Assembly: GCA_002840765.1 (NCBI GenBank) | Contig: PHCE01000002.1 | Coordinates: 558,001-622,000, forward strand | Length of the DNA stretch: 64,000 nucleotides | Reading direction: 5' to 3' | DNA from: Betaproteobacteria bacterium HGW-Betaproteobacteria-7 | Lineage (GTDB): Bacteria > Pseudomonadota > Gammaproteobacteria > Burkholderiales > Rhodocyclaceae | Shown here: in pieces, positions 20,370-29,555 of the stretch | How the letters are laid out: each line of letters starts with the position of its first letter | Position numbering within the stretch: position 1 is the stretch's first letter | Program-made: the position numbers and the translations under genes | Notes under the pieces: model-generated | The model's database searches: none | The model's input: the letters and a program-made list of their open reading frames with translations, nothing else | What the model was told of the DNA's origin: nothing

Positions 20370-20443
20370 GCGGGCGTCGTATAATGGTAATACCCTAGCT
20401 TCCCAAGCTAGAGCCGTGGGTTCGATTCCCATCGCCCGCTCCA
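20370..20443 (+). tRNA. tRNA-Gly(CCC)
   Basis: A 74-nt cloverleaf. The acceptor GCGGGCG pairs with CGCCCGC. The D arm contains ATAATGGTAAT. The anticodon stem CTAGC/GCTAG encloses loop TTCCCAA, giving anticodon CCC. The T arm is TGGG-TTCGATT-CCCA. The 3' CCA is encoded. Its 3' end is the insertion point of a small toxin-antitoxin island, because the last ~24 nt recur at 22351. Confidence 0.95.
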
Positions 20444-20445
20444 CA
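20420..20445 (+). repeat. Direct repeat copy 1 (att-like, tRNA-Gly 3' end)
   Basis: These 26 bases cover the T-arm, acceptor and CCA of tRNA-Gly plus two flanking bases. They are identical to 22351-22376. Similarity continues without gaps through the following terminator (about 80 of 88 bases match). This is the pattern left by site-specific integration into a tRNA 3' end, or by duplication of a tRNA-terminator unit. Confidence 0.85.
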
Positions 20446-20478
20446 TCGAATTCGGGCAGGTCGTTGATCTGCAAAAGC

Positions 20479-20508
20479 AAAAGCCAACCGAGTCCGGTTG
20501 GCTTTTTT
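20479..20508 (+). terminator. Terminator after tRNA-Gly
   Basis: AAGCCAACCG-AGTC-CGGTTGGCTT forms a 10-bp stem with a T-run. It terminates the tRNA transcript. The same hairpin recurs at 22409-22440. Confidence 0.9.
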
Positions 20509-20564
20509 GTTGGCTGGTCGATGTCTGGTCAAAACTTAATTTCCTACTCTCCGCTAGCGTTACC

Positions 20565-21050
20565 CTACTGCCACTGTTGCAGGCGCTGATGGCATTCAGC
20601 TTGGGGTAAGCGGGCGCCATGCTTAAGCATGGCGCGCAGTGCATCAGCCGCCCGGACTGGCGTAATGATGGCGTGAGCAACAAACTGGTCCAGTAGCCAG
20701 AGTACGCCGAACACTTGAATGCCATCCTTGGTCGCTTGTTTCCGCAGCTTGCCATCGCCCGTAAGCAATGGGTGACCGGTTTGCTGAGCCAAGTAGTAGC
20801 AGGACACATCGGCCAGCGAGCTATTCCGATGCGCGCCCATCAACGTGAAAAGTTGGGCGACCGCGCCCTCATTCAGCGTTTCGACTTGTAGCCCCTGTTC
20901 CACAAGCAATTCCTGCGGCAAATCGGTCAGCTCGTTCATCACAAAGTCAGTCGAGCACAATGTCAGTGGGAGCTGGAACAGCTCCGCCAGCAGGTCCGCG
21001 TTGCGAAAATCGATCCAGATGTTCGTGTCGCTGATGTAAACCTTGGTCAT
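20565..21050 (-). CDS. PIN-domain protein, probable toxin
   Basis: A 161-residue PIN-like protein. Likely metal-binding acids are Asp8 (YISDTNIWIDF), Glu40 (MNEL), Asp81 (SSLADVSCYYLA) and Asp99 (LLTGDGKLRK), the usual PIN quartet. PIN toxins are Mg-dependent ribonucleases. The ATG overlaps the stop of the upstream HTH-ImmA gene by 4 bp, so the two are coupled. Base composition is visibly less GC-rich than that of flanking genes, and the pair lies between tRNA repeats, which suggests acquisition by transfer. Confidence 0.82.
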   Translation of the reverse strand: MTKVYISDTNIWIDFRNADLLAELFQLPLTLCSTDFVMNELTDLPQELLVEQGLQVETLNEGAVAQLFTLMGAHRNSSLADVSCYYLAQQTGHPLLTGDGKLRKQATKDGIQVFGVLWLLDQFVAHAIITPVRAADALRAMLKHGARLPQAECHQRLQQWQ

Positions 21051-22105
21051 TGAATCCCCAGCGGACCAGTCAGGCTCGGATCGAGAGCACTCAGCGGTTG
21101 CTGTAGAAATTCAGCTGCCCTGGACTTACTGAAAAAATCTTCTGCCAGCCCCCAGAACACCAGTGACTCAAAGCGCCGGGGAGTTTCCGCGGGAAGTGCT
21201 TCCGGCTCTTCTTTTCTCCAACCATTCTTGCTGAACTGAATCGAGCTGTACTGATAGCCCGCATCACTCAACAAGGACAGATCTTTCAGGCGACGCAATA
21301 CAGCGGCCATCGACAGACCGTAATGCTGCTTGGCAATTAGAAGTTCGCGGGGGTGGACCCGTGAGCGGGGGTGCCCGCCGAAATCGGCAGTCACACAAGA
21401 GGCCGGATACAGAAACGCGCCGGCAAAGCGGTGGCAACAGGTTTCGACGTCCTTTTCGCTCATGTCGTCTGGGAACTTCATGACCCAGTGCCCCAGTTCG
21501 TGTGCAGCAGTAAAGCGCATACGTTCACCAGGACGTTCTGCATTCAAGGCGATCAAAACGTGCTGGCCATCCTGAGTGGCAGCGCAAGCCCCGTCAAAGT
21601 CCTCCGGACCATGCAGCAGCGCGACTTTGATGCCGCGCTCTTCCAGCAACTCAGTGAGATTGGCAATAGCGTCTTCGCCGATTTGCCAATGGTTGCGAAG
21701 CTGATTAGCCGCTGCTTCGGCTTCGTCAAACGAAGACACGGCCAGCATTCCCTGCGGGGTGAGCGGAGTATCGATATCAGCGTGCTCGAAGCAGTTTTCT
21801 AGGGCGATATAGCGCTCCAGATGTTCCCGGATACGTTCGGTCACTTGCTCTTGCCGATACTTCGGCATCTTGGCGAGCTTACGGAATTCGAGTGGGGCTA
21901 ACTCGACCAAATCTGCCCGGAAAAAATACTCCGGACTCAGCTCCAATGCCTTCGCGAGCTGCAGCAATCTGGTGGAATTGGGCGCGGTTTGACCGCTTTC
22001 AAACTTGCTGAGGGCCTGCTTGGTGATGTCACCGATGCGCTGGGCAAGGGCTTCCAGGGTGTAACCCTTGAGCACACGCGCTCGCCTGATGCGATCATGA
22101 ATCAT
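21047..22105 (-). CDS. HTH-XRE and ImmA/IrrE metallopeptidase protein, probable antitoxin/regulator
   Basis: A predicted 352-residue protein. The N-terminal XRE helix-turn-helix (RIRRARVLKGYTLEALAQRI, then KQALSKFESGQ) covers about residues 1-60. The C-terminal ImmA/IrrE (COG2856) domain has an intact zinc motif HELGH at 202-206. The start at 22105 has GGGGA 7 bases upstream; a longer frame to 22156 would run into the operator. Such proteins commonly pair with toxins or control mobile elements. Here the gene directly precedes and overlaps the PIN toxin gene. Confidence 0.85.
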   Translation of the reverse strand: MIHDRIRRARVLKGYTLEALAQRIGDITKQALSKFESGQTAPNSTRLLQLAKALELSPEYFFRADLVELAPLEFRKLAKMPKYRQEQVTERIREHLERYIALENCFEHADIDTPLTPQGMLAVSSFDEAEAAANQLRNHWQIGEDAIANLTELLEERGIKVALLHGPEDFDGACAATQDGQHVLIALNAERPGERMRFTAAHELGHWVMKFPDDMSEKDVETCCHRFAGAFLYPASCVTADFGGHPRSRVHPRELLIAKQHYGLSMAAVLRRLKDLSLLSDAGYQYSSIQFSKNGWRKEEPEALPAETPRRFESLVFWGLAEDFFSKSRAAEFLQQPLSALDPSLTGPLGIQ

Positions 22106-22118
22106 GGTCATTCCCCAA

Positions 22119-22153
22119 GTTGACAACGATCTAATTATAATATATTTGTCAAC
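22119..22153 (-). promoter_or_regulatory. Promoter/operator of the toxin-antitoxin pair
   Basis: Inverted repeat arms GTTGACAA (22119-22126) and TTGTCAAC (22146-22153) flank an AT-rich core with TATAAT-like bases, just upstream of the HTH-ImmA start. The position suggests autorepression by the HTH domain. Seen by eye only. Confidence 0.6.
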
Positions 22154-22156
22154 CAT

Positions 22157-22350
22157 TTGGTGATTGAGCTACCCTATTCTGTCTGCCGCTTTTCTGGTTC
22201 TTCTGGTCACAACGGAATCCAAGCCAGTCAAATTAGGTAGTAGATTAGTCTGATACGACTTGAAGCGTGTTCCTTTGATAAAACAAATACTGCTTAATTT
22301 TCATTTGGTTAGATGTAATACAGCTCGGGCTGATGTGCCTAGACCCACGT
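22157..22350. other. AT-rich gap of the island, no gene seen
   Basis: The gene-free stretch runs from the toxin-antitoxin operator to the second repeat, and on to the cytochrome b stop at 22483. It is clearly AT-rich. Near 22315-22350 there are scattered matches to tRNA-Gly (GTAATAC and CCTAGA). This could be the decayed 5' part of a second tRNA copy. I see no open frame, integrase remnant or promoter for the cytochrome genes here. Confidence 0.5.
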
Positions 22351-22376
22351 GTTCGATTCCCATCGCCCGCTCCACA
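22351..22376 (+). repeat. Direct repeat copy 2 (att-like, tRNA-Gly 3' end fragment)
   Basis: An exact 26-base copy of 20420-20445, 1931 bp away. It lacks a functional anticodon arm upstream, so it is not a second tRNA gene. The similarity continues into a matching terminator. It marks the far edge of the small island. Confidence 0.85.
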
Positions 22377-22408
22377 GCGAATTCAGGCTGGTTGTTGATC
22401 AGCAAATA

Positions 22409-22440
22409 AAAAAGCCAACCGAGTCCGGTTGGCTTTTCTT
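22409..22440. terminator. Second copy of the tRNA-Gly terminator
   Basis: AAAAGCCAACC...GGTTGGCTTTT is the same hairpin as at 20479. Flanking A and T runs let it act in both directions, so it probably now ends the minus-strand octaheme-cytochrome b transcript (stop at 22483). Confidence 0.8.
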
Positions 22441-22482
22441 CTTGCTGCCCGTTGCGGGCGTTGCCGGGGTGTTTGTGGCCGC

Positions 22483-23079
22483 TTAGTGCACTTCCTCCCA
22501 GCCGGTGATCATCGCCTTCAGGTGCGAGGAGACGGTGGCGCCGGCGGTGATCAGGTAGAGGTGGGCGATCAGGAAGATGAGCATGAAGAAGGCGCCGATG
22601 GTGTGGCCGATGGCGATCCATTCCAGGGACAGCCAGCCCAGTCCCCAGTCGCCGAGCGAGGCGTAGAAGAGCAGCAACCAGCCGGTGGTCCACAACAGCG
22701 GGCCGACAAAGGCGAGGATGAACAGGTATGCGAGGCGCTGCAGGGGGTTGTGCTTCTGCAGTTGCGTCTGGCGGTGCGGGTGCGGCGCGTTCTTGAAGAT
22801 GCCGGAAAGGTAGTAGCGGACCATGGCGATGACGTTGGTCGTGGTCGGTACGTATTGCCGCCATTCGCCGGTGGTCAGGTGCCAGAAGATGGCGAAGACC
22901 CACAGGCCGACCAGGGTCCAGGCGGCGGCGCGGTGATAGATGACGGCATCGGCGAAGCCGAAGATGGTCATGGTGCCGTGCAGGTCCAGGGCGGTGATCA
23001 TCAGGAAGATGATGAGGGCGGCCTGGGACCAGTGCCAGAAGCGTTCAAAGCGCTTGAAGATGTAGATTTTTTGGGTCAT
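22483..23079 (-). CDS. Cytochrome b561-type membrane subunit of the octaheme cluster
   Basis: A 198-residue inner-membrane protein with four to five hydrophobic helices. Histidines placed for b-heme ligation are in ERFWHWSQAALI, VIYHRAAAW, IFWHLTTGEW and GHTIGAFFMLIFLIAHLY. This is the cytochrome b/Ni-Fe hydrogenase b-subunit-like fold, which usually connects the quinone pool to periplasmic cytochromes. The start at 23079 has GAGGAG upstream. It follows the octaheme cytochrome gene by 10 bp, so it is its likely quinol-oxidising electron donor. Confidence 0.88.
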   Translation of the reverse strand: MTQKIYIFKRFERFWHWSQAALIIFLMITALDLHGTMTIFGFADAVIYHRAAAWTLVGLWVFAIFWHLTTGEWRQYVPTTTNVIAMVRYYLSGIFKNAPHPHRQTQLQKHNPLQRLAYLFILAFVGPLLWTTGWLLLFYASLGDWGLGWLSLEWIAIGHTIGAFFMLIFLIAHLYLITAGATVSSHLKAMITGWEEVH

Positions 23080-23089
23080 TTCCGACTCC

Positions 23090-24694
23090 TCAGGATTTCT
23101 TGCTGGCGACAATGCGGATCAGGCCGTGGCCGATCACGCCGAGCAGGGTGAGCAATGCGAGTGTCCAGCCGATGGTGTCCACCCAGCGATTGTTGTCCTG
23201 GCCAATCAGGTAGATGCCGTCGATGCCGGCGAGACGGCCTTCCTTGGCGTGACATTCGGTGCAGGCGAGCGCCTTGTCCTTGGGGGCGACCATGTGGGTG
23301 ATCGGCCAGTACATTTCGGTGGATACGAAGTCGTATTTGCCGGAGAAGGGCTTGCCGGACTCCTTCATGCCGCTTTCGATGGCCTTGCCCCAGTTGAGGT
23401 TCTTCCAGTAGCCATAATCGTCGTTGCCGGCGGTGTGCGGCGTCACCAGGTTCATGTTGGCGGCGTCGTAGGGCTGCTTGCCGCGCATGATCTTCATTGG
23501 CCAGATCAGCGATTTGCCGTCGCTGGCGCTGCCGTTGATGCGATTGATGCCGATCGGCTGATGCGTCGGGTCGATCTTGTCATCGAGCAGGGTGTAGGTG
23601 ATTTCGCCGTTGAACCAGCGGTATTCGGGCTTGACGTTGGTGGCGATGATGAAATCGCCCTTGCGCGATTCATAGGTGATCTTGCCCTTGTTGTCCTTGC
23701 GCACGATCTGCTTGCCGTTGGCGTCGACTTCGCCGGCGGTAGACCAGTCCCATACCATCTTGGTCGGCACGCCGCCGCGGGCGAATTCGGGGATGTGGCA
23801 GGTCTGGCAGGCGACCTTGGCCGAATGGTGGTTCAGGCGTTCGGCATGGTCGCCGGTCTTGTGCGGTGTGGTGTCGTGACAGGCGACGCAAGTGGCCGGA
23901 TTGCCGCCTTCGACCTGCTTGCCGCGCATGTGGGCACCGCCCTTGTCCTTGGCGGTCGGCGTGTAGCGGCTGCCCGGGACATCGTGGCTGGAGGTGGCGT
24001 GGCAGGTGCCGCAGGTGAAGTCGAGGCCGAGGGCGTCCATGTGGACGTCAAGATCGGTGTCCGGCACGGCCATCGAGCTGTCGAGGTCGCCGTGTTTTAC
24101 ACCGTCGCCACCGCCGCCGTAGAAGTGGCAGGAGCCGCAGGTGTCGCGACTGCTCTTGCCGACCTTGCGGGCGACCATGCCGAGATCCACACCCTTGACG
24201 ATGCGGCCCGAGCCGGGAGGCAGTTCCATATCCTTGCCGAAGGCCATGCCACCGGTGCCGGGAACCTTCTTGTAGGTGCCGGTAGTGTCGTGGCAGACGA
24301 GACAGTCGACGTTTTCCTGGGAGGAGAAGTCGAAGTTGCTGTCCTTCCAGCCATAACCCACGTGGCAGGTGGTGCAGAAGGGGGTGTTTTGCGGGATTGA
24401 GATGCAGAAGTTGTTGAGCACGTTTTTCTTGCCCAGTTTCTGGTTGTTCTCGGTGTTGATGAACTCCCAGGTCCAGTGCTTGGTGCTGTGCACCTGTTTG
24501 GCGGCCTCGGTGTGGCAGCCCAGGCAGGCTTTGGTGACTTCCGGGCCGGTGCCAAAACCGCCCTGCAATTCCTTGAACTTGCCGTGGTCGGCAGTCGTGG
24601 TTTTTGGCAGCGCCGCTTCTGCTGGGCTGTTGCCCGCCAGGAAGAGCCAACCGGCAAAAAGTGCGGTGGCAATTAAGCTTATGGTTGAGTGCAT
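23090..24694 (-). CDS. Octaheme c-type cytochrome, tetrathionate reductase (OTR) family
   Basis: A 534-residue secreted multiheme cytochrome. A signal peptide (residues 1-28) is followed by eight CxxCH motifs: CLGCH, CTTCH, CLVCH, CGSCH, CGTCH, CVACH, CQTCH and CTECH. A C-terminal membrane helix (WTLALLTLLGVIGHGLI) anchors it. The eight-motif pattern and KHWTWEF block match the octaheme tetrathionate reductase family, known to reduce tetrathionate, nitrite and hydroxylamine in vitro. The start at 24694 has GGGGA upstream. The gene precedes cytochrome b and is divergent from the sensor kinase. Confidence 0.9.
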   Translation of the reverse strand: MHSTISLIATALFAGWLFLAGNSPAEAALPKTTTADHGKFKELQGGFGTGPEVTKACLGCHTEAAKQVHSTKHWTWEFINTENNQKLGKKNVLNNFCISIPQNTPFCTTCHVGYGWKDSNFDFSSQENVDCLVCHDTTGTYKKVPGTGGMAFGKDMELPPGSGRIVKGVDLGMVARKVGKSSRDTCGSCHFYGGGGDGVKHGDLDSSMAVPDTDLDVHMDALGLDFTCGTCHATSSHDVPGSRYTPTAKDKGGAHMRGKQVEGGNPATCVACHDTTPHKTGDHAERLNHHSAKVACQTCHIPEFARGGVPTKMVWDWSTAGEVDANGKQIVRKDNKGKITYESRKGDFIIATNVKPEYRWFNGEITYTLLDDKIDPTHQPIGINRINGSASDGKSLIWPMKIMRGKQPYDAANMNLVTPHTAGNDDYGYWKNLNWGKAIESGMKESGKPFSGKYDFVSTEMYWPITHMVAPKDKALACTECHAKEGRLAGIDGIYLIGQDNNRWVDTIGWTLALLTLLGVIGHGLIRIVASKKS

Positions 24695-24726
24695 AATATT
24701 CCCCATTTGATGACCCAGCGAAGGGC

Positions 24727-24789
24727 AGTCTAGGCGTCGGCAAGATGGCGCGAAATAGCACGCTTGTGCCATGCGCCTAATCGGAATCG
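24727..24789 (-). promoter_or_regulatory. Predicted regulated promoter of the octaheme cytochrome gene (motif copy A)
   Basis: On the minus strand, GATTCCGATTAGGCGC then ATGGCACAA (24764-24789) is followed 31 bp later by TAGACT at 24732-24727. The same block with the same 31-bp spacing occurs at 27791-27853 upstream of the monoheme cytochrome gene. The block is likely the response-regulator site and TAGACT a -10 element. It overlaps the first possible ATG (24771) of the sensor kinase, one reason to start that gene at 24822. Confidence 0.7.
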
Positions 24790-24821
24790 GTTATCACCCC
24801 GCCAATCCTGCCCAGCATCGA

Positions 24822-26651
24822 ATGAATTCAGCCTGGCTTTTCGCGGTACGCCGCCATCTCTTCGCTGCCGTCATCGGCCTGTTCTCGTGCCTGCTACTGG
24901 CGGGCATGCCGGGCAGGGTGCTGGCCACTGAAGTGCGCATTGGCGTACTCGCCTGGTTCGGCAATCAGTCGGCCGAGGAGCAATGGCGCGGCCTCGACAA
25001 AGCGCTGCAGAGCCAGATGCCGGGCCACCCGGTAAGCCTGCATTACTACGACATGGCCGGGCTGGAGAAGGCCGTGGTTGCTGGCGATGTGGACTTCATC
25101 ATCACCAACCCAGGGCACTATGTGGCGCTCGAAGCCCGGCACGGCGTGACGCGGATTGCCACCCAGAAGATCACGCCGGGTCAGGATTCGATGTTTGCCG
25201 TGGGTTCGGCGGTGATTGTCCGCACTGAGCGCGCCGATCTGCACTCGCTCGACGATCTGCGCGGCAAGCGGCTGGCGGCGACGGTGGCGGAAGGTTTCAG
25301 CGGCTGGCAGGTGATCTGGGCGGAACTCAAGGCGCGCGACATCGATCCGGAGGCGGGTGATGTCGAGCCATTGTTCACGGGTTTTCCGATGACGCGGATC
25401 ATCGATGCGGTGGATAGTGGCCAGAGCGATGCCGGCATTTTGCGCGGCTGCCTGCTGGAGCACTTGATCCGTCAGGGCGCTGTGCCAGCGGGCCGTTACC
25501 GCGTGCTGTCGGTGCGCGACGAGGGCGCTCCCTGCCTGATGACGTCACCGGTCTATCCTGGCTGGGCTTTCGCCGCCGCGCGGCAGACGCCGGAAGTGTT
25601 GGCACGCACGGTGCTGATCGCGCTGTTGTCGCTGAAAGGCACTGAAGCGGTGCTCAGGTGGAATGTGCCGGCTGACTATTACCCGGTGCACGAGATGCTG
25701 CGCAGCCTGCATGTGGAGCCCTATGCGTTCCTGCGCGAACAGCGCCTGGCGGCGCAGATCCGGCGTTACTGGCCGGTGGCCGCTGGTGTCGTCGTGCTGT
25801 TCCTGCTCTGGCTCCTCTATACCCTGCGTGTCGAGGTGCTGATGCTGCGCCGCGGCCGCGAGTTGTCGGCGGCGCTGACGGCACGTCAGGAGCTCGAGGA
25901 GAACATTCAGGTGCAACGCCAGAAGATGGAGCACCTGTCGCGCTTGTCCATTCTTGGCGAGTTGTCGTGCACGCTGGCCCATGAGTTGAACCAGCCGCTG
26001 GCGACCATCGGCAACTATGCCCGCAGCCTGACGCGCCGCCTGCAGAGCGGCAAGCTTTCCGATGATGCGATCAGCCAGGCGGCGCATGAAATTAGCGAGC
26101 AATCGGAGCGTGCTGCCGCGATTCTCCAGGGGATTCGCGATTTTTCCCGCAAACGCCCCCGTCAGCGCGAGGACTGCGATGCCGGGATGATGCTCGGCGA
26201 GATCGTCGCGCTCTTTCGCGGCATGGTGGCGCGCGCGCCGGCGATTCGGGTCATTGATCGCCTGCCGGCGGAAGAGCAGAGCATTCATGTCGATCGGCTG
26301 CAGATACAGCAGGTCATGCTCAATCTGCTGAAGAACGCGTATGACGCCCACAGTGCCGGCGGGCAGACGAATCTGCCCATCGAGATCATTCTCGAAGCTG
26401 CCGACGAGCGGGTGCGCATCGCCGTTCGCGATCACGGCCCGGGTCTGGCTGCCGAAGACCGGGCGCGGCTGTTCGAGCCTTTCTTCACGACCAAGCCAGA
26501 CGGCATGGGGCTTGGCCTTTCCATCTGCAAGAGCATCGTCGAAGCACACGGCGGCCAACTGGTTGCCGAATCCCCGGCCGATGGCGACGGGCTCTGCTTC
26601 TCCTTCACTCTGCCTCACGGGTCTACACGCCATGATCAACAACAAGACTGA
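24822..26651 (+). CDS. PhnD-domain sensor histidine kinase (TtrS-like)
   Basis: A 609-residue membrane kinase. A signal/anchor segment lies at about 10-35. A periplasmic PhnD-type binding domain follows at about 38-290 ([37 protein letters not shown]), then a membrane helix near 316-336. HisKA has phospho-His 387 in [18 protein letters not shown]. HATPase has [12 protein letters not shown] and [18 protein letters not shown]. The layout matches TtrS, which senses tetrathionate/thiosulfate-type ligands. It is divergent from the octaheme gene and overlaps the regulator gene by 20 bp. Confidence 0.88.
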
Positions 26652-27273
26652 GCCGGCCATCCACGTCATTGATGACGAGGCGCCTTTCCGGCGCTCCTTG
26701 CTCTTCCTGCTCGAATCGGCTGGCTGGACGGCATCCGGACATGAGTCGGCGGAAGCCTTTCTGGCCGAAATGCCGAGCATGCCGGTGGATGGGGGCTGTC
26801 TGGTCCTCGATATCCGCATGCCACGCATCAGCGGCCTCGAACTGCAGCGTCGCCTGACGGCGCTGGCCTCGCCCTGGCCGATTATCTTCATGACCGGTCA
26901 TGGCGATGTCGAACTGGCCGTTCAGGTGATGAAGGAGGGGGCGATCGATTTCTTGCAGAAGCCGTTCAAGGACCATGCCTTCCTCGAAACTATCGAACGC
27001 GCGGTACAGTTGAGCCGGGCTCAGCAGCAAATCAGCCGGCGCTGCGCCGAGGCTCGCGCCTTGCTCGACCGCCTGAGCCCGCGCGAGGCGGAAGTTGCCC
27101 GCTGCCTGGCCCGGGGGCTGGCCAACAAGGAAATCGCCCGTGAATTGTCGATCAGCGACAACACCGTGCATGTCCATCGCCAGCACGTGATGGAGAAGAC
27201 GGGAACCGGCAGCGCTGCCGATCTCGCCCGGTTGATCCTGCGCGCCGACCCGAACGGCCTCGACGAGGACTAA
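26632..27273 (+). CDS. FixJ/TtrR-type response regulator
   Basis: A 213-residue regulator. The receiver domain (1-125) has acidic pair Asp14-Asp15, phosphoacceptor Asp60 in [12 protein letters not shown] and Lys in LQKPFKD. A LuxR-type helix-turn-helix (about 145-205) has [40 protein letters not shown]-type residues. The ATG at 26632 overlaps the kinase gene, so the pair is coupled. It is the prime candidate to bind the motif shared by the two cytochrome promoters. Confidence 0.92.
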
Positions 27274-27287
27274 TCGTTTTCGATTAG
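27270..27287. promoter_or_regulatory. CTAATCG palindrome, possible regulator site
   Basis: CTAATCG-TTTT-CGATTAG is a perfect inverted repeat that overlaps the response-regulator stop codon. The right arm and following bases (TTTCGATTAGTGCGATG) resemble the block conserved in both cytochrome promoters (TTTCGATTAGGCGGATG). It could be an operator for the downstream receiver-only gene or a weak terminator. Confidence 0.5.
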
Positions 27288-27397
27288 TGCGATGACTTAC
27301 GCTGGCTATGGGCGGCGTTCGTCGTGGAGTATATCGTTGCCGTGTTCGCGCGGCTGCCGTTCAGGCCGCAACCTGCCGGGTGCCCTGAGTAGCCACG

Positions 27398-27793
27398 ATG
27401 ACGTCCATGCCTTCCGAAGCGGTTATCCATGTCGTCGACGACGAGGCGGCTTTTCGCCGTTCGCTCATCTTCCTGCTCGAATCCGCCGGTTGGCTGGTGA
27501 TTGGCCACCCGTCGGCTGAATCCTTCCTGGCGGCGGCGCCGGCCTTGCCGGAAAAGGGGGGCTGCCTGCTGCTCGACGTTCGCATGCCGTGCATGAGCGG
27601 TTTCGAGTTGCAGCGCCAATTGCTCGCCGGTGGCCCACCCTGGCCGATTGTTTTCATGACCGGCCACGGCGATGAAGAAATGGCGGCGCATGCGTTGCAG
27701 GCCGGTGCCTGCGATTTTCTGCACAAGCCGTTTGCCGATCAGGTGGTGCTTGATGCCGTGGAGAGGGCCATCCGGCAAAGCCGGGTTAACTGA
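27398..27793 (+). CDS. Receiver-only response regulator (truncated paralogue)
   Basis: A 131-residue stand-alone receiver domain. It aligns with the first 130 residues of the upstream regulator with the same numbering: Asp14-Asp15, Asp60 in LLLDVRMPCMSG, FMTGHGD and LHKPFAD. It then stops without any DNA-binding domain. It probably competes for phosphate from the PhnD-domain kinase, or acts as a phosphate sink. Start options are the ATG at 27398 or MPSEA three codons later. Confidence 0.88.
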   Translation: MTSMPSEAVIHVVDDEAAFRRSLIFLLESAGWLVIGHPSAESFLAAAPALPEKGGCLLLDVRMPCMSGFELQRQLLAGGPPWPIVFMTGHGDEEMAAHALQAGACDFLHKPFADQVVLDAVERAIRQSRVN

Positions 27794-27853
27794 TTTCGAT
27801 TAGGCGGATGGCACAAACAAATAATGTTCAAGCCATACGTGCCTGCCTAGACT
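27791..27853 (+). promoter_or_regulatory. Predicted regulated promoter of the monoheme cytochrome gene (motif copy B)
   Basis: GATTTCGATTAGGCGG then ATGGCACAA (27792-27816) is followed by 31 bp and TAGACT at 27848-27853, then about 50 bp of leader to the cytochrome c ATG. It matches motif copy A at 24764-24789 in sequence and spacing. It begins at the stop codon of the receiver-only gene. Confidence 0.7.
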
Positions 27854-27902
27854 TTGTCGGGTGGAAATCCAACTGACCGATACCCCTGAAGAGGAATAGA
27901 TC

Positions 27903-28289
27903 ATGAAACTCGCCCTCGTCCTGCCCCTGGTCGCCGCCGCCACGCTGAGCTCCGCCCCGGTCCTTGCCTACGATGCCGACTGGAAGCGCGGCCGGATCTA
28001 TTACCGTGCCATCTGTTCGTCCTGCCATACGACCACGCCGAACGGGGTGATCCAGCCGAACGGCCGCACCAAGGGGGAGTGGATGGCCTACCTGAAGGCC
28101 GACAAGCACGACAAGGGCAAGGAGCCGGTCGCGAAATACTTCAGCAAGGAGTATCTGAGCAGCATCAAGGCCACTAACAAGGCTGCTGATCGCTTCTTCA
28201 GCGTACCGACCGATCAGTTGCTCCAGGATGTTCAGTTGTTCCTGCAGCGCAGTGCCAAGGATGGCGAAGCGCCGGCCAGCTGCAACTGA
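27903..28289 (+). CDS. Periplasmic monoheme cytochrome c
   Basis: A 128-residue secreted protein with a signal peptide (cut near VLA-YDAD). One heme-binding motif, CSSCH, lies near residue 39-43. A single Met after the heme (GEWMAYL) is the main candidate for the sixth ligand. The protein is Lys-rich, suiting electron transfer to an acidic partner. It has its own motif-B promoter and precedes the triple-rhodanese gene by 105 bp. It may deliver or accept electrons for the octaheme cytochrome. Confidence 0.88.
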   Translation: MKLALVLPLVAAATLSSAPVLAYDADWKRGRIYYRAICSSCHTTTPNGVIQPNGRTKGEWMAYLKADKHDKGKEPVAKYFSKEYLSSIKATNKAADRFFSVPTDQLLQDVQLFLQRSAKDGEAPASCN

Positions 28290-28394
28290 TCAGCCGCCAC
28301 GCCCGCTCACCCTGGCTGGCCGTTCGCCGGTCGGACAATGAACGTGGCCGGGAAGCGCACTCCATTTCCATCTTATCGAGCCCGGGAGCCATTC

Positions 28395-29555
28395 ATGAAC
28401 ATCAAGTTACTTGTCGCCGCCGTTGCCCTCGCCTTTGTCGCCGGTCATCCGGCCGCCCAGACAGCGGCGCCGGTCTCCGAACCGCAGGCCAGTGAGTCGC
28501 CGCTGGTGCGCTATCAGAAGGTTGTCGATTTTGACTATGTGAAGCCGCTTGCCACCTTGCCGCGCAAGATCGAGGAGGGCGCCCTGATCATCGATTCGCG
28601 CCCCAAGGCCCGGCGTTTCGATATCGGCCATATTCCCGGGGCGATCAACCTTCCGGATACCCAGTTCGAGAAAATGGTTCATCTGCTGCCGCAGGACAAG
28701 GCGCGCGAGCTCATCTTCTATTGCCAAGGGGCGACCTGCGATCTCTCGGCGAAATCCGCCCTGAAGGCCGAAAAGCTCGGCTACACCAACATCAAGGTCT
28801 ATGAAGGCGGGATCCCGGATTGGGAAGCACGCGGCGAGAACACCGCCGTCAGTCTGGACTTCATTCTCAAGGCGCTGAAGGAGAAGGCCGATATCGTCCT
28901 CATCGATGCCCGTCCGGCACGCCGGGTCGCCAACGAAGGAACGATTCCCGGTGCGATCAACATTTCGGACACCAATTTCGACAAGGAAACTGCCAAGCTT
29001 CCGGCCGACAAAAACACGGAAATCATCTTTTTCTGCCAGGGCTTTGCTTGTGACCTCTCGGAGAAGTCCGCCAAGAAGGCCAAGGCGCTCGGGTACACCA
29101 AGGTCCGTACTTTCCCCGACGGCCATCCGGCCTACGTGGCGGCGACCAGTGGCGCTCAGGGGGCTGCTGCGGCTCCGGCCGGGGGACGCAGCGAACCCGC
29201 TGTCGCCGCTCCGACGCTTGAGCCAGGCAAGGAGAAGGGCAGCATCACCACCGCCTCGTTCGAGCGCATCCTGAAGGAAAGTCCGGGCTCGATGCTGATC
29301 GTCGATGTGCGCGACGCCAAGGACATCAAGGCCGGCACCTTCCCTGGTGCGGTCAATATCCCGGTCGGCGAGGTCGAAAAGCGTATCGGCGAGTTGCCGA
29401 AGGACAAGCCCGCAGTCTTCGTCTGCACCACCGGAGCGCGTTCCGGCGAGGCTTATGACATGGTGAAGCTGATCGATGCCAGCTTGCCCGTCTATTTCCT
29501 CGATGCCGAGGTCGCCTTTGCCGGCGGCGGCGCATACAAGATCAAGGCGCGCTGA
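28395..29555 (+). CDS. Periplasmic triple-rhodanese protein
   Basis: A 386-residue secreted protein. After a signal peptide (residues 1-22) come three rhodanese domains at about 35-140, 145-250 and 285-380. Domains 1 and 2 have near-identical loops, CQGATCD and CQGFACD. Domain 3 has CTTGARS. The DxR-type entry motifs (IIDSRPKARRFDIGHIPGA; LIDARPARR; IVDVRDAKDIKAGTFPGA) are intact. Such domains carry sulfane sulfur. Location beside the octaheme cytochrome suggests handling of thiosulfate or polythionate sulfur; this is inference. The start at 28395 has GGGAG upstream. Confidence 0.9.
   Translation: MNIKLLVAAVALAFVAGHPAAQTAAPVSEPQASESPLVRYQKVVDFDYVKPLATLPRKIEEGALIIDSRPKARRFDIGHIPGAINLPDTQFEKMVHLLPQDKARELIFYCQGATCDLSAKSALKAEKLGYTNIKVYEGGIPDWEARGENTAVSLDFILKALKEKADIVLIDARPARRVANEGTIPGAINISDTNFDKETAKLPADKNTEIIFFCQGFACDLSEKSAKKAKALGYTKVRTFPDGHPAYVAATSGAQGAAAAPAGGRSEPAVAAPTLEPGKEKGSITTASFERILKESPGSMLIVDVRDAKDIKAGTFPGAVNIPVGEVEKRIGELPKDKPAVFVCTTGARSGEAYDMVKLIDASLPVYFLDAEVAFAGGGAYKIKAR

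Follow-up and report, generated by a model that had tools for sequence, protein, structure and literature searches.

The DNA examined here is a 64,000-nucleotide stretch of contig PHCE01000002.1 (positions 558,001 to 622,000) of Betaproteobacteria bacterium HGW-Betaproteobacteria-7, hereafter the window, and the subject is a gene cluster in it that is built around an octaheme cytochrome of the OTR family (22483-29555). An earlier sequence-only reading had listed seven genes there, and Pfam and NCBIfam scans confirm that all seven are real and lie where that reading had placed them.

The octaheme cytochrome (534 amino acids) is encoded on the minus strand at 23090..24694, with its start codon Met at 24694. 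It scores 625 bits against the OTR model TIGR04315 (cut-off 375) and carries eight CxxCH motifs and a hydrophobic C-terminal segment, in agreement with the sequence-only reading, which had described a C-terminally anchored OTR cytochrome with eight such motifs. Its sole relative in the PDB is 1sp3, the OTR of Shewanella oneidensis (E 2.8e-115), with which it shares the family model, the eight CxxCH motifs and three residues: C97, D197 and K200 (counted from Met 24694), which are invariant in a 20-row alignment of the subfamily, align with residues 64, 150 and 153 of 1sp3. We take Cys64, Asp150 and Lys153 to be active-site residues; no paper with these numbers was found. Two features, its C-terminal anchor and its cognate cytochrome b, set the window protein apart from that of Shewanella, and the cytochrome c, rhodanese and YeeE partners described below are unmentioned in the available parts of the literature on the Shewanella OTR.

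The cognate cytochrome is a b561-type membrane subunit of 198 amino acids (22483..23079, minus strand; PF01292, 1.8e-20), presumably the quinol- or quinone-side subunit. It adjoins the OTR gene in 29 of 30 loci at which genes were called, and it falls outside the PhsC family, scoring 111.7 bits against the PhsC-like model PRK15006 (cut-off 204). Two further OTR-cytochrome b pairs are present in the 4.4-Mb genome, on C22 and C31; in the 20 kb surrounding each, no relative of the cytochrome c, rhodanese or kinase of the window was found.

The remaining five genes are on the plus strand. The first encodes a sensor histidine kinase with a periplasmic PhnD-type domain (24822..26651; PF12974, 6.1e-33; HisKA, PF00512; HATPase, PF02518). 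Its reading frame is open from 24771, and the start at 24822 is more likely because a conserved operator-like site occupies 24777-24793. A FixJ/TtrR-like response regulator consisting of a receiver and a LuxR-type HTH domain comes next (26632..27273), its gene overlapping the end of that for the kinase; it scores 211.5 bits against FixJ (cut-off 255) and 153.3 bits against TtrR (cut-off 290). It is followed by a receiver-only protein (27398..27793; PF00072 only) that is a paralogue of the receiver domain of the regulator.

The next gene encodes a monoheme cytochrome c (27903..28289) with a CSSCH heme site and an invariant penultimate Cys127; His69 is conserved, whereas no Met beyond the heme site is. 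At E 0.001 neither Pfam nor NCBIfam has a family that it matches, its best PDB profile match is 8yts (E 3.8e-4), and the best Foldseek match (E 0.38) gives no close fold. We rejected assignment to a known family, since the protein has no family match of its own and there are weak c-type matches for three relatives. All rows of two alignments, one of 21 rows and one of 29 rows (of which L132 copies L015), end in P-A/T-x-C-x, and the penultimate cysteine is the only cysteine in them after the CxxCH motif. The AlphaFold model has a mean pLDDT of 82.6, with values below 50 for the last three residues.

The last gene encodes a triple-domain rhodanese (28395..29555; PF00581 in three stretches), predicted to be periplasmic from a signal-peptide-like start judged by eye. 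Its active loops read CxGxxC, CxGxxC and CTTGAR, and C110, C115, C214, C219 and C344 are invariant in 18 rows.

Conservation among relatives

A search of named genomes yielded 299 relatives of OTR, and the best 80 of 299 were kept for neighbourhood counts; genes were called at 30 chosen module loci. The nearest named relatives are metagenome-assembled genomes labelled Azoarcus sp. (OTR 91% identical) and Rhodocyclaceae. We also searched a sample of 250 genomes of the order with identical handles in every search; in each genome, scores were calculated only for a few top candidates of a first pass (7 in the rhodanese search). L015/L132 and L032/L133 (our handles for loci; G denotes genomes) are identical contigs, so that the 80 named loci include two of the seven genomes of this sample that have the module.

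Of the 80 relatives, 31 have the cytochrome c and 26 the triple rhodanese (>200 bits). A gene for a YeeE/YedE transporter recurs in 20 of the 30 module loci, and both of its proteins that were scanned match PF04143. The order and orientation of the genes vary among relatives, and the rhodanese of L011 was called in two pieces.

The comparison of 250 genomes gives a sharper picture. OTR is present in 23 of them and the cytochrome c (>140 bits) in seven, the other 14 cytochrome c matches scoring 30 bits or less; these seven are exactly the genomes with the seven highest-scoring OTRs. A full-length triple rhodanese (>500 bits) occurs in six genomes, all among the same seven, and in G067 it lies on a different contig from the OTR gene. 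The YeeE subfamily is found in eight genomes, with 8/8 genes at most 1.4 kb from an OTR gene. It is present in six of the seven cytochrome c genomes, the exception being the genome of the window; in G020 and G150, YeeE is divergent from OTR and is accompanied by neither the cytochrome c nor the rhodanese. A two-domain rhodanese relative (339 bits, 46%) was also seen in G218 (L147, 9903-10697), where it lies beside what appears by eye to be an NAD-type-hydrogenase-like operon.

A quick maximum-likelihood tree of OTR (99 rows) was calculated after removal of L133 and L109, which take the same places as L032 and L139; L080 yielded no row, and neither the copies of G014 nor the second OTRs of G043, G067 and G248 were included. 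A clade of 40 rows (support 89, not starred) contains 36 of the 39 module rows. In its four other rows (L010, L016, L019 and L030), the contig ends on the side where the nearest relatives have the module. The module rows outside the clade are L139 and L140, which have YeeE alone, and L136_2, the second OTR copy that flanks the module of G243. In the larger tree set, 39/39 module rows have the Cys motif, versus 36/60 other rows.

Because of the co-occurrence in 250 genomes and the OTR tree, the association of these genes goes beyond chance: judged by their distribution, OTR, cytochrome b, cytochrome c and the triple rhodanese are a co-inherited unit, to which YeeE also belongs in relatives that have dsrA. 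The sequence-only reading was thus right to treat the rhodanese and the cytochrome c as true partners of OTR. It had also counted the regulators as part of the module and had suggested the conservation of the gene set in relatives as a check. On this check the rhodanese holds and the regulators do not: the PhnD-type sensor is found in only two of the 80 relatives, L006 and L007, and in the tree the two-component system is restricted to the three-row clade of these two and the window (support 100). We therefore rejected the two-component system as a member of the conserved set; it is younger than the rest of the module. In the available parts of the openly licensed literature, no description of a set of cytochrome c, rhodanese, YeeE and OTR was found.

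Other features were seen around OTR genes. Among the 60 non-module OTR-like rows, six have 15 CxxCH motifs and one has 12; these are larger proteins, perhaps fusions. A small DUF302 protein adjoins OTR in L004 (8043-8588) and L136 (14984-15478) according to Pfam, with similar proteins by eye in L142-L145. These OTRs lie outside the module subfamily or are the second copy in G243, and the DUF302 protein is a possible partner of another OTR branch. A DUF3373-type protein (by Pfam for L141, by eye for L139, L140, L038, L039 and L042) and a secreted-looking protein of about 105 amino acids recur near OTR in these six loci. Finally, sigma-54 activators lie beside OTR in L005 (7272-8537, the C31 paralogue) and in L134 (12479-13813, the module of G067; PAS domain by Pfam), so that the OTR-adjacent regulator differs between lineages.

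Candidate operators and relatives of the kinase

Three copies of one palindromic 17-bp element lie in the cluster: operator 1, TAACCGATTCCGATTAG, in the promoter between the divergent kinase and OTR genes (24777..24793, minus strand); operator 2, TAATCGTTTTCGATTAG, between the regulator and the receiver-only gene (27271..27287, plus strand), within the perfect inverted repeat CTAATCG-tttt-CGATTAG; and operator 3, TAACTGATTTCGATTAG, between the receiver-only gene and the cytochrome c (27787..27803, plus strand). Copies are kept at the same three places in L006 and L007, both of which also have the receiver-only gene. With up to two mismatches, the element has three sites in the 4.4-Mb genome, all inside the cluster; with exactly three mismatches there are 18 matches outside it, compared with six for a reversed-pattern control at up to three mismatches. 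In 6/6 OTR and cytochrome c promoters of the three loci, a -10-like TAGACT begins 44 nt past the site (from operator 1 towards OTR, from operator 3 towards cytochrome c); these six cases are not independent, since the window and L006 are close relatives. The window has only four occurrences of TAGACT, both strands counted, and none lies within 150 nt of operator 2. The looser pattern TAATCGNNNNCGNTTA is unremarkable (12 matches, 6.6 expected, equalled in 6 of 100 shuffles), and the genome-wide search with the 17-bp element is the stronger test. A sigma-54 promoter was rejected because the spacing of TGGCACAA...TGC is one base short (by eye).

These sites indicate that the two-component system probably controls both transcription units here through the candidate operators. 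Although outside the conserved set, the regulators would thus be tied to the module in this genome. The layout of a PhnD-type sensor, an adjacent FixJ-like regulator and putative inverted-repeat sites at the target promoters is that of TtrSR and ThsSR. According to the available parts of its description, ThsSR of Shewanella halifaxensis likewise has a PhnD-type sensor, a FixJ-like regulator and an 18-bp operator with a short inverted repeat; its operator sequence is different, and its target is a predicted thiosulfate reductase (PMC5408782).

By NCBIfam cut-offs, the window pair does not belong to TtrSR (TtrS 304/750, TtrR 153/290), and it may still work like it. The sensor domain has no sequence match in the PDB; relatives at E 1e-20 or better are found in 39 of the 250 genomes. 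Sixteen kinase homologues were fetched, namely the 11 with the best scores, the cluster itself excepted, and five lower-ranked ones, and the genes around them were identified mostly by eye rather than by profile scan. Among the 11 best, TtrA-like genes lie near four (L182, in the same genome as the window, L185, L186 and L191), TsdA near L184 and a PhsA-like gene near L189. With such a gene near 6/11, the kinase belongs by context with thiosulfate and tetrathionate systems, in line with the tetrathionate-like ligands named in the sequence-only reading. Among the five lower-ranked homologues, L193 and L194 adjoin soxB, and no sulfur-anion enzyme was recognised near the other three; since G024 and G154 were deliberately picked with prior knowledge of soxB nearby, only the 6/11 is an unpicked count.

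The closest paralogue of the kinase in the same genome (44% identity over 586 amino acids) belongs to L182, where TtrB-, TtrC- and TtrA-like genes and a TtrSR-like pair, all under their equivalog cut-offs, lie together on contig C24 (30287-37564). The TtrA-like protein scores 1170 bits (cut-off 1750), and TtrA and TtrC match their own Ttr models best; the TtrB-like protein likewise has its Ttr model as best match (314.9 bits, cut-off 416) but also passes the cut-off of DsrO (219.1/200). In two intergenic stretches near this cluster, a script found no copy of the operator and no perfect inverted repeat whose arms measure 6 nt. The sequence-only reading had stated that a molybdenum-type TtrA is missing from the window's cluster, and indeed the Pfam and NCBIfam scan finds no TtrA molybdoenzyme among its genes. 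Its proposal that the module is an alternative to the Ttr system fails, since the genome itself holds the TtrBCA-like genes; we rejected the module as a replacement for Ttr. The two systems share a PhnD-type kinase and a FixJ/TtrR-like regulator beside a candidate reductase, and differ in that the window module lacks a molybdoenzyme; both are present in one genome.

On the cytochrome b side of the module, an exact copy of the last 24 nt of a tRNA-Gly(CCC) gene (20370-20443) stands at 22351-22374, inside a direct repeat of 116 nt (84%; 20408-20523 and 22339-22454). The repeats enclose a gene of the HTH/M78-peptidase type and a PIN-like gene, the latter with a PIN match below the Pfam cut-off. 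The region 20370-22454 looks like a 1.9-kb integrated element adjoining the module.

Link to sulfur oxidation

The dsrA and soxB searches give weak matches in many genomes, and only those above the cut-off were counted. In the sample of 250 genomes, soxB is present in 22 of the 23 OTR genomes compared with 97 of the 227 others, and dsrA in 18 of 23 compared with 30 of 227 (Fisher tests, ignoring relatedness); G014 has dsrA in pieces below the cut-off. All seven module genomes of this sample have soxB. Among 32 module genomes, dsrA was found in 19 of 20 with YeeE and in none of 10 without it; this comparison excludes L017 and L020, which have cut contigs and are both dsrA-positive, and counts the YeeE of L036, cut by a contig end, as present. 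SoxC was found above the cut-off in five of 33 module genomes, including that of the window, and all five lack YeeE. In other words, YeeE goes with dsrA, and soxC is found only where YeeE and dsrA are both missing. The genome of the window has SoxB and SoxC.

Two known systems resemble parts of this arrangement. Like the YeeE-YedE import systems SoxT and TsuA (PMC11582611), the modules of relatives have a PF04143 transporter, which co-occurs with dsrA. The YeeE of the module is a separate subfamily tied to OTR, and the cluster of the window has no such transporter. In lucinid symbionts, which are sulfur oxidisers, otr adjoins soxY-S3, which likewise places an OTR gene beside a sulfur-carrier gene; the set of cytochrome c, triple rhodanese and YeeE is unmentioned in the available parts of that paper (PMC11237559).

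Proposed role and alternatives

The gene set and its apparent shared switch speak for a role in sulfur rather than nitrogen metabolism, and the substrate of OTR is probably a sulfur compound. We consider it about an even chance that the cluster is a conserved sulfur module working in the periplasm of sulfur-oxidising betaproteobacteria, in which a quinol-linked reduction of the tetrathionate class feeds sulfane sulfur into sulfur oxidation; for the direction of OTR taken separately, reduction is slightly favoured. Quinol electrons would pass via cytochrome b to OTR, which would cleave the S-S bond of tetrathionate (or of a related polythionate or protein-bound sulfur) to give sulfur at the thiosulfate level. 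The rhodanese, possibly together with the cysteine-tailed cytochrome c, would accept the sulfane sulfur. In relatives, YeeE would import sulfur for a Dsr pathway run oxidatively; in the organism of the window, the sulfur would be handed to the periplasmic Sox system including SoxC. The PhnD-type kinase would sense thiosulfate or tetrathionate. Given the YeeE of relatives and the association with soxB, dsrA and soxC, both out of reach of the sequence-only reading, the module more likely serves sulfur oxidation in the first place than respiration. Of the quinol-linked polythionate pathway that the sequence-only reading had suggested, the sulfur link and the quinol-side partner, cytochrome b, are thus retained, and respiration as the main purpose becomes less likely.

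Several observations weigh against this reading. The kinase is far below the TtrS cut-off, as given above, and no sulfur-anion enzyme was recognised near five of its 11 best homologues. The cluster of the window lacks the YeeE/YedE transporter, of which its genome holds only distant homologues, and the genome has no dsrA above the cut-off; among all 11 YeeE-less module genomes, six have neither dsrA nor soxC above it. L009 has YeeE yet only dsrA fragments. On the OTR tree, YeeE and dsrA change together in 4/4 independent pairs, which with L009 entered as dsrA-absent gives p 0.125 in a sign test, and draft genomes may mimic the absence of either gene. The dsrA model, TIGR02064, cannot separate oxidative from reductive Dsr. 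In one module row, L138, Asn replaces the conserved Asp of OTR. According to the parts of the source available, tetrathionate is not the only compound that the Shewanella OTR reduces, nitrite and hydroxylamine being reported too (PMC4484225).

The strongest rival is the opposite direction, in which OTR would oxidise thiosulfate or a persulfide (on a cysteine of the rhodanese or the cytochrome), and electrons would flow via cytochrome b to quinone or via cytochrome c to an oxidase. The abundance of soxB and dsrA among OTR carriers of the order fits this direction equally well and in that respect counts against the reductive one, and SoxYZ-like and flavocytochrome-c-like proteins were recognised by eye near the module in L032/L133. 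On the other hand, the literature, as far as available, describes OTR as a reductase, electron transfer from thiosulfate to ubiquinone is generally unfavourable, and the kinase has its in-genome paralogue in a TtrBCA-like reductase cluster. We regard oxidation as unlikely, though worth keeping in view.

It is improbable that OTR instead reduces or detoxifies nitrite, hydroxylamine or NO and that the sulfur genes are adjacent since denitrifying sulfur oxidisers need both. The nitrite and hydroxylamine activities of the Shewanella enzyme would suit such a role, the sigma-54 activators beside OTR in L134 and the C31 paralogue score 257.8 and 289.9 bits against NorR (cut-off 476), and a NapC/NirT-like protein lies by eye about 3 kb beyond the module in L133. 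However, the rhodanese, YeeE and the contexts of the kinase homologues are sulfur parts, every YeeE gene of the 250 genomes stands beside OTR, and no nitrogen enzyme was recognised by eye among 25 recurrent clusters in the 30 module loci.

Selenium or another chalcogen oxyanion is a very improbable substrate: the transporter of L007 has the selenium-related YedE/FdhT as its best NCBIfam match (115.9 bits, cut-off 350), and the available parts of a 2026 review list selenocysteine members for the OTR, YeeE/YedE and rhodanese families (PMC13188914), but across genomes the link is to sox and dsr genes. That the genes are chance neighbours with no functional link is scarcely credible, for the variable order and orientation and the separate rhodanese contig of G067 are outweighed by exact co-occurrence in 250 genomes, clade-wide retention and shared operator-like sites.

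A more specific and rather doubtful possibility starts from the cytochrome c. SoxY bears a C-terminal cysteine arm, and the C-terminal cysteine of the cytochrome resembles it, which suggests that the cytochrome may be a sulfur carrier. The OTR subfamily would then form the catalytic centre of a sulfane-sulfur route of sulfur oxidisers that has not been described before, in which the cytochrome, as a redox-active carrier, shuttles sulfur among OTR, the rhodanese and a dedicated YeeE importer. Such a cytochrome would be a heme-bearing counterpart of the SoxY arm, with its cysteine on a tail that is unordered in the model, and OTR would gain a physiological role distinct from tetrathionate or nitrite respiration.

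OTR proteins are annotated as tetrathionate reductases, though the literature, in the parts available, gives both sulfur and nitrogen substrates. If the sulfur-module reading is true, surveys that score otr as respiratory tetrathionate (or nitrite) reduction misinterpret the gene in sulfur oxidisers. The co-inherited sulfur gene set, the dsrA-tied transporter and a defined operator make the role of OTR directly testable.

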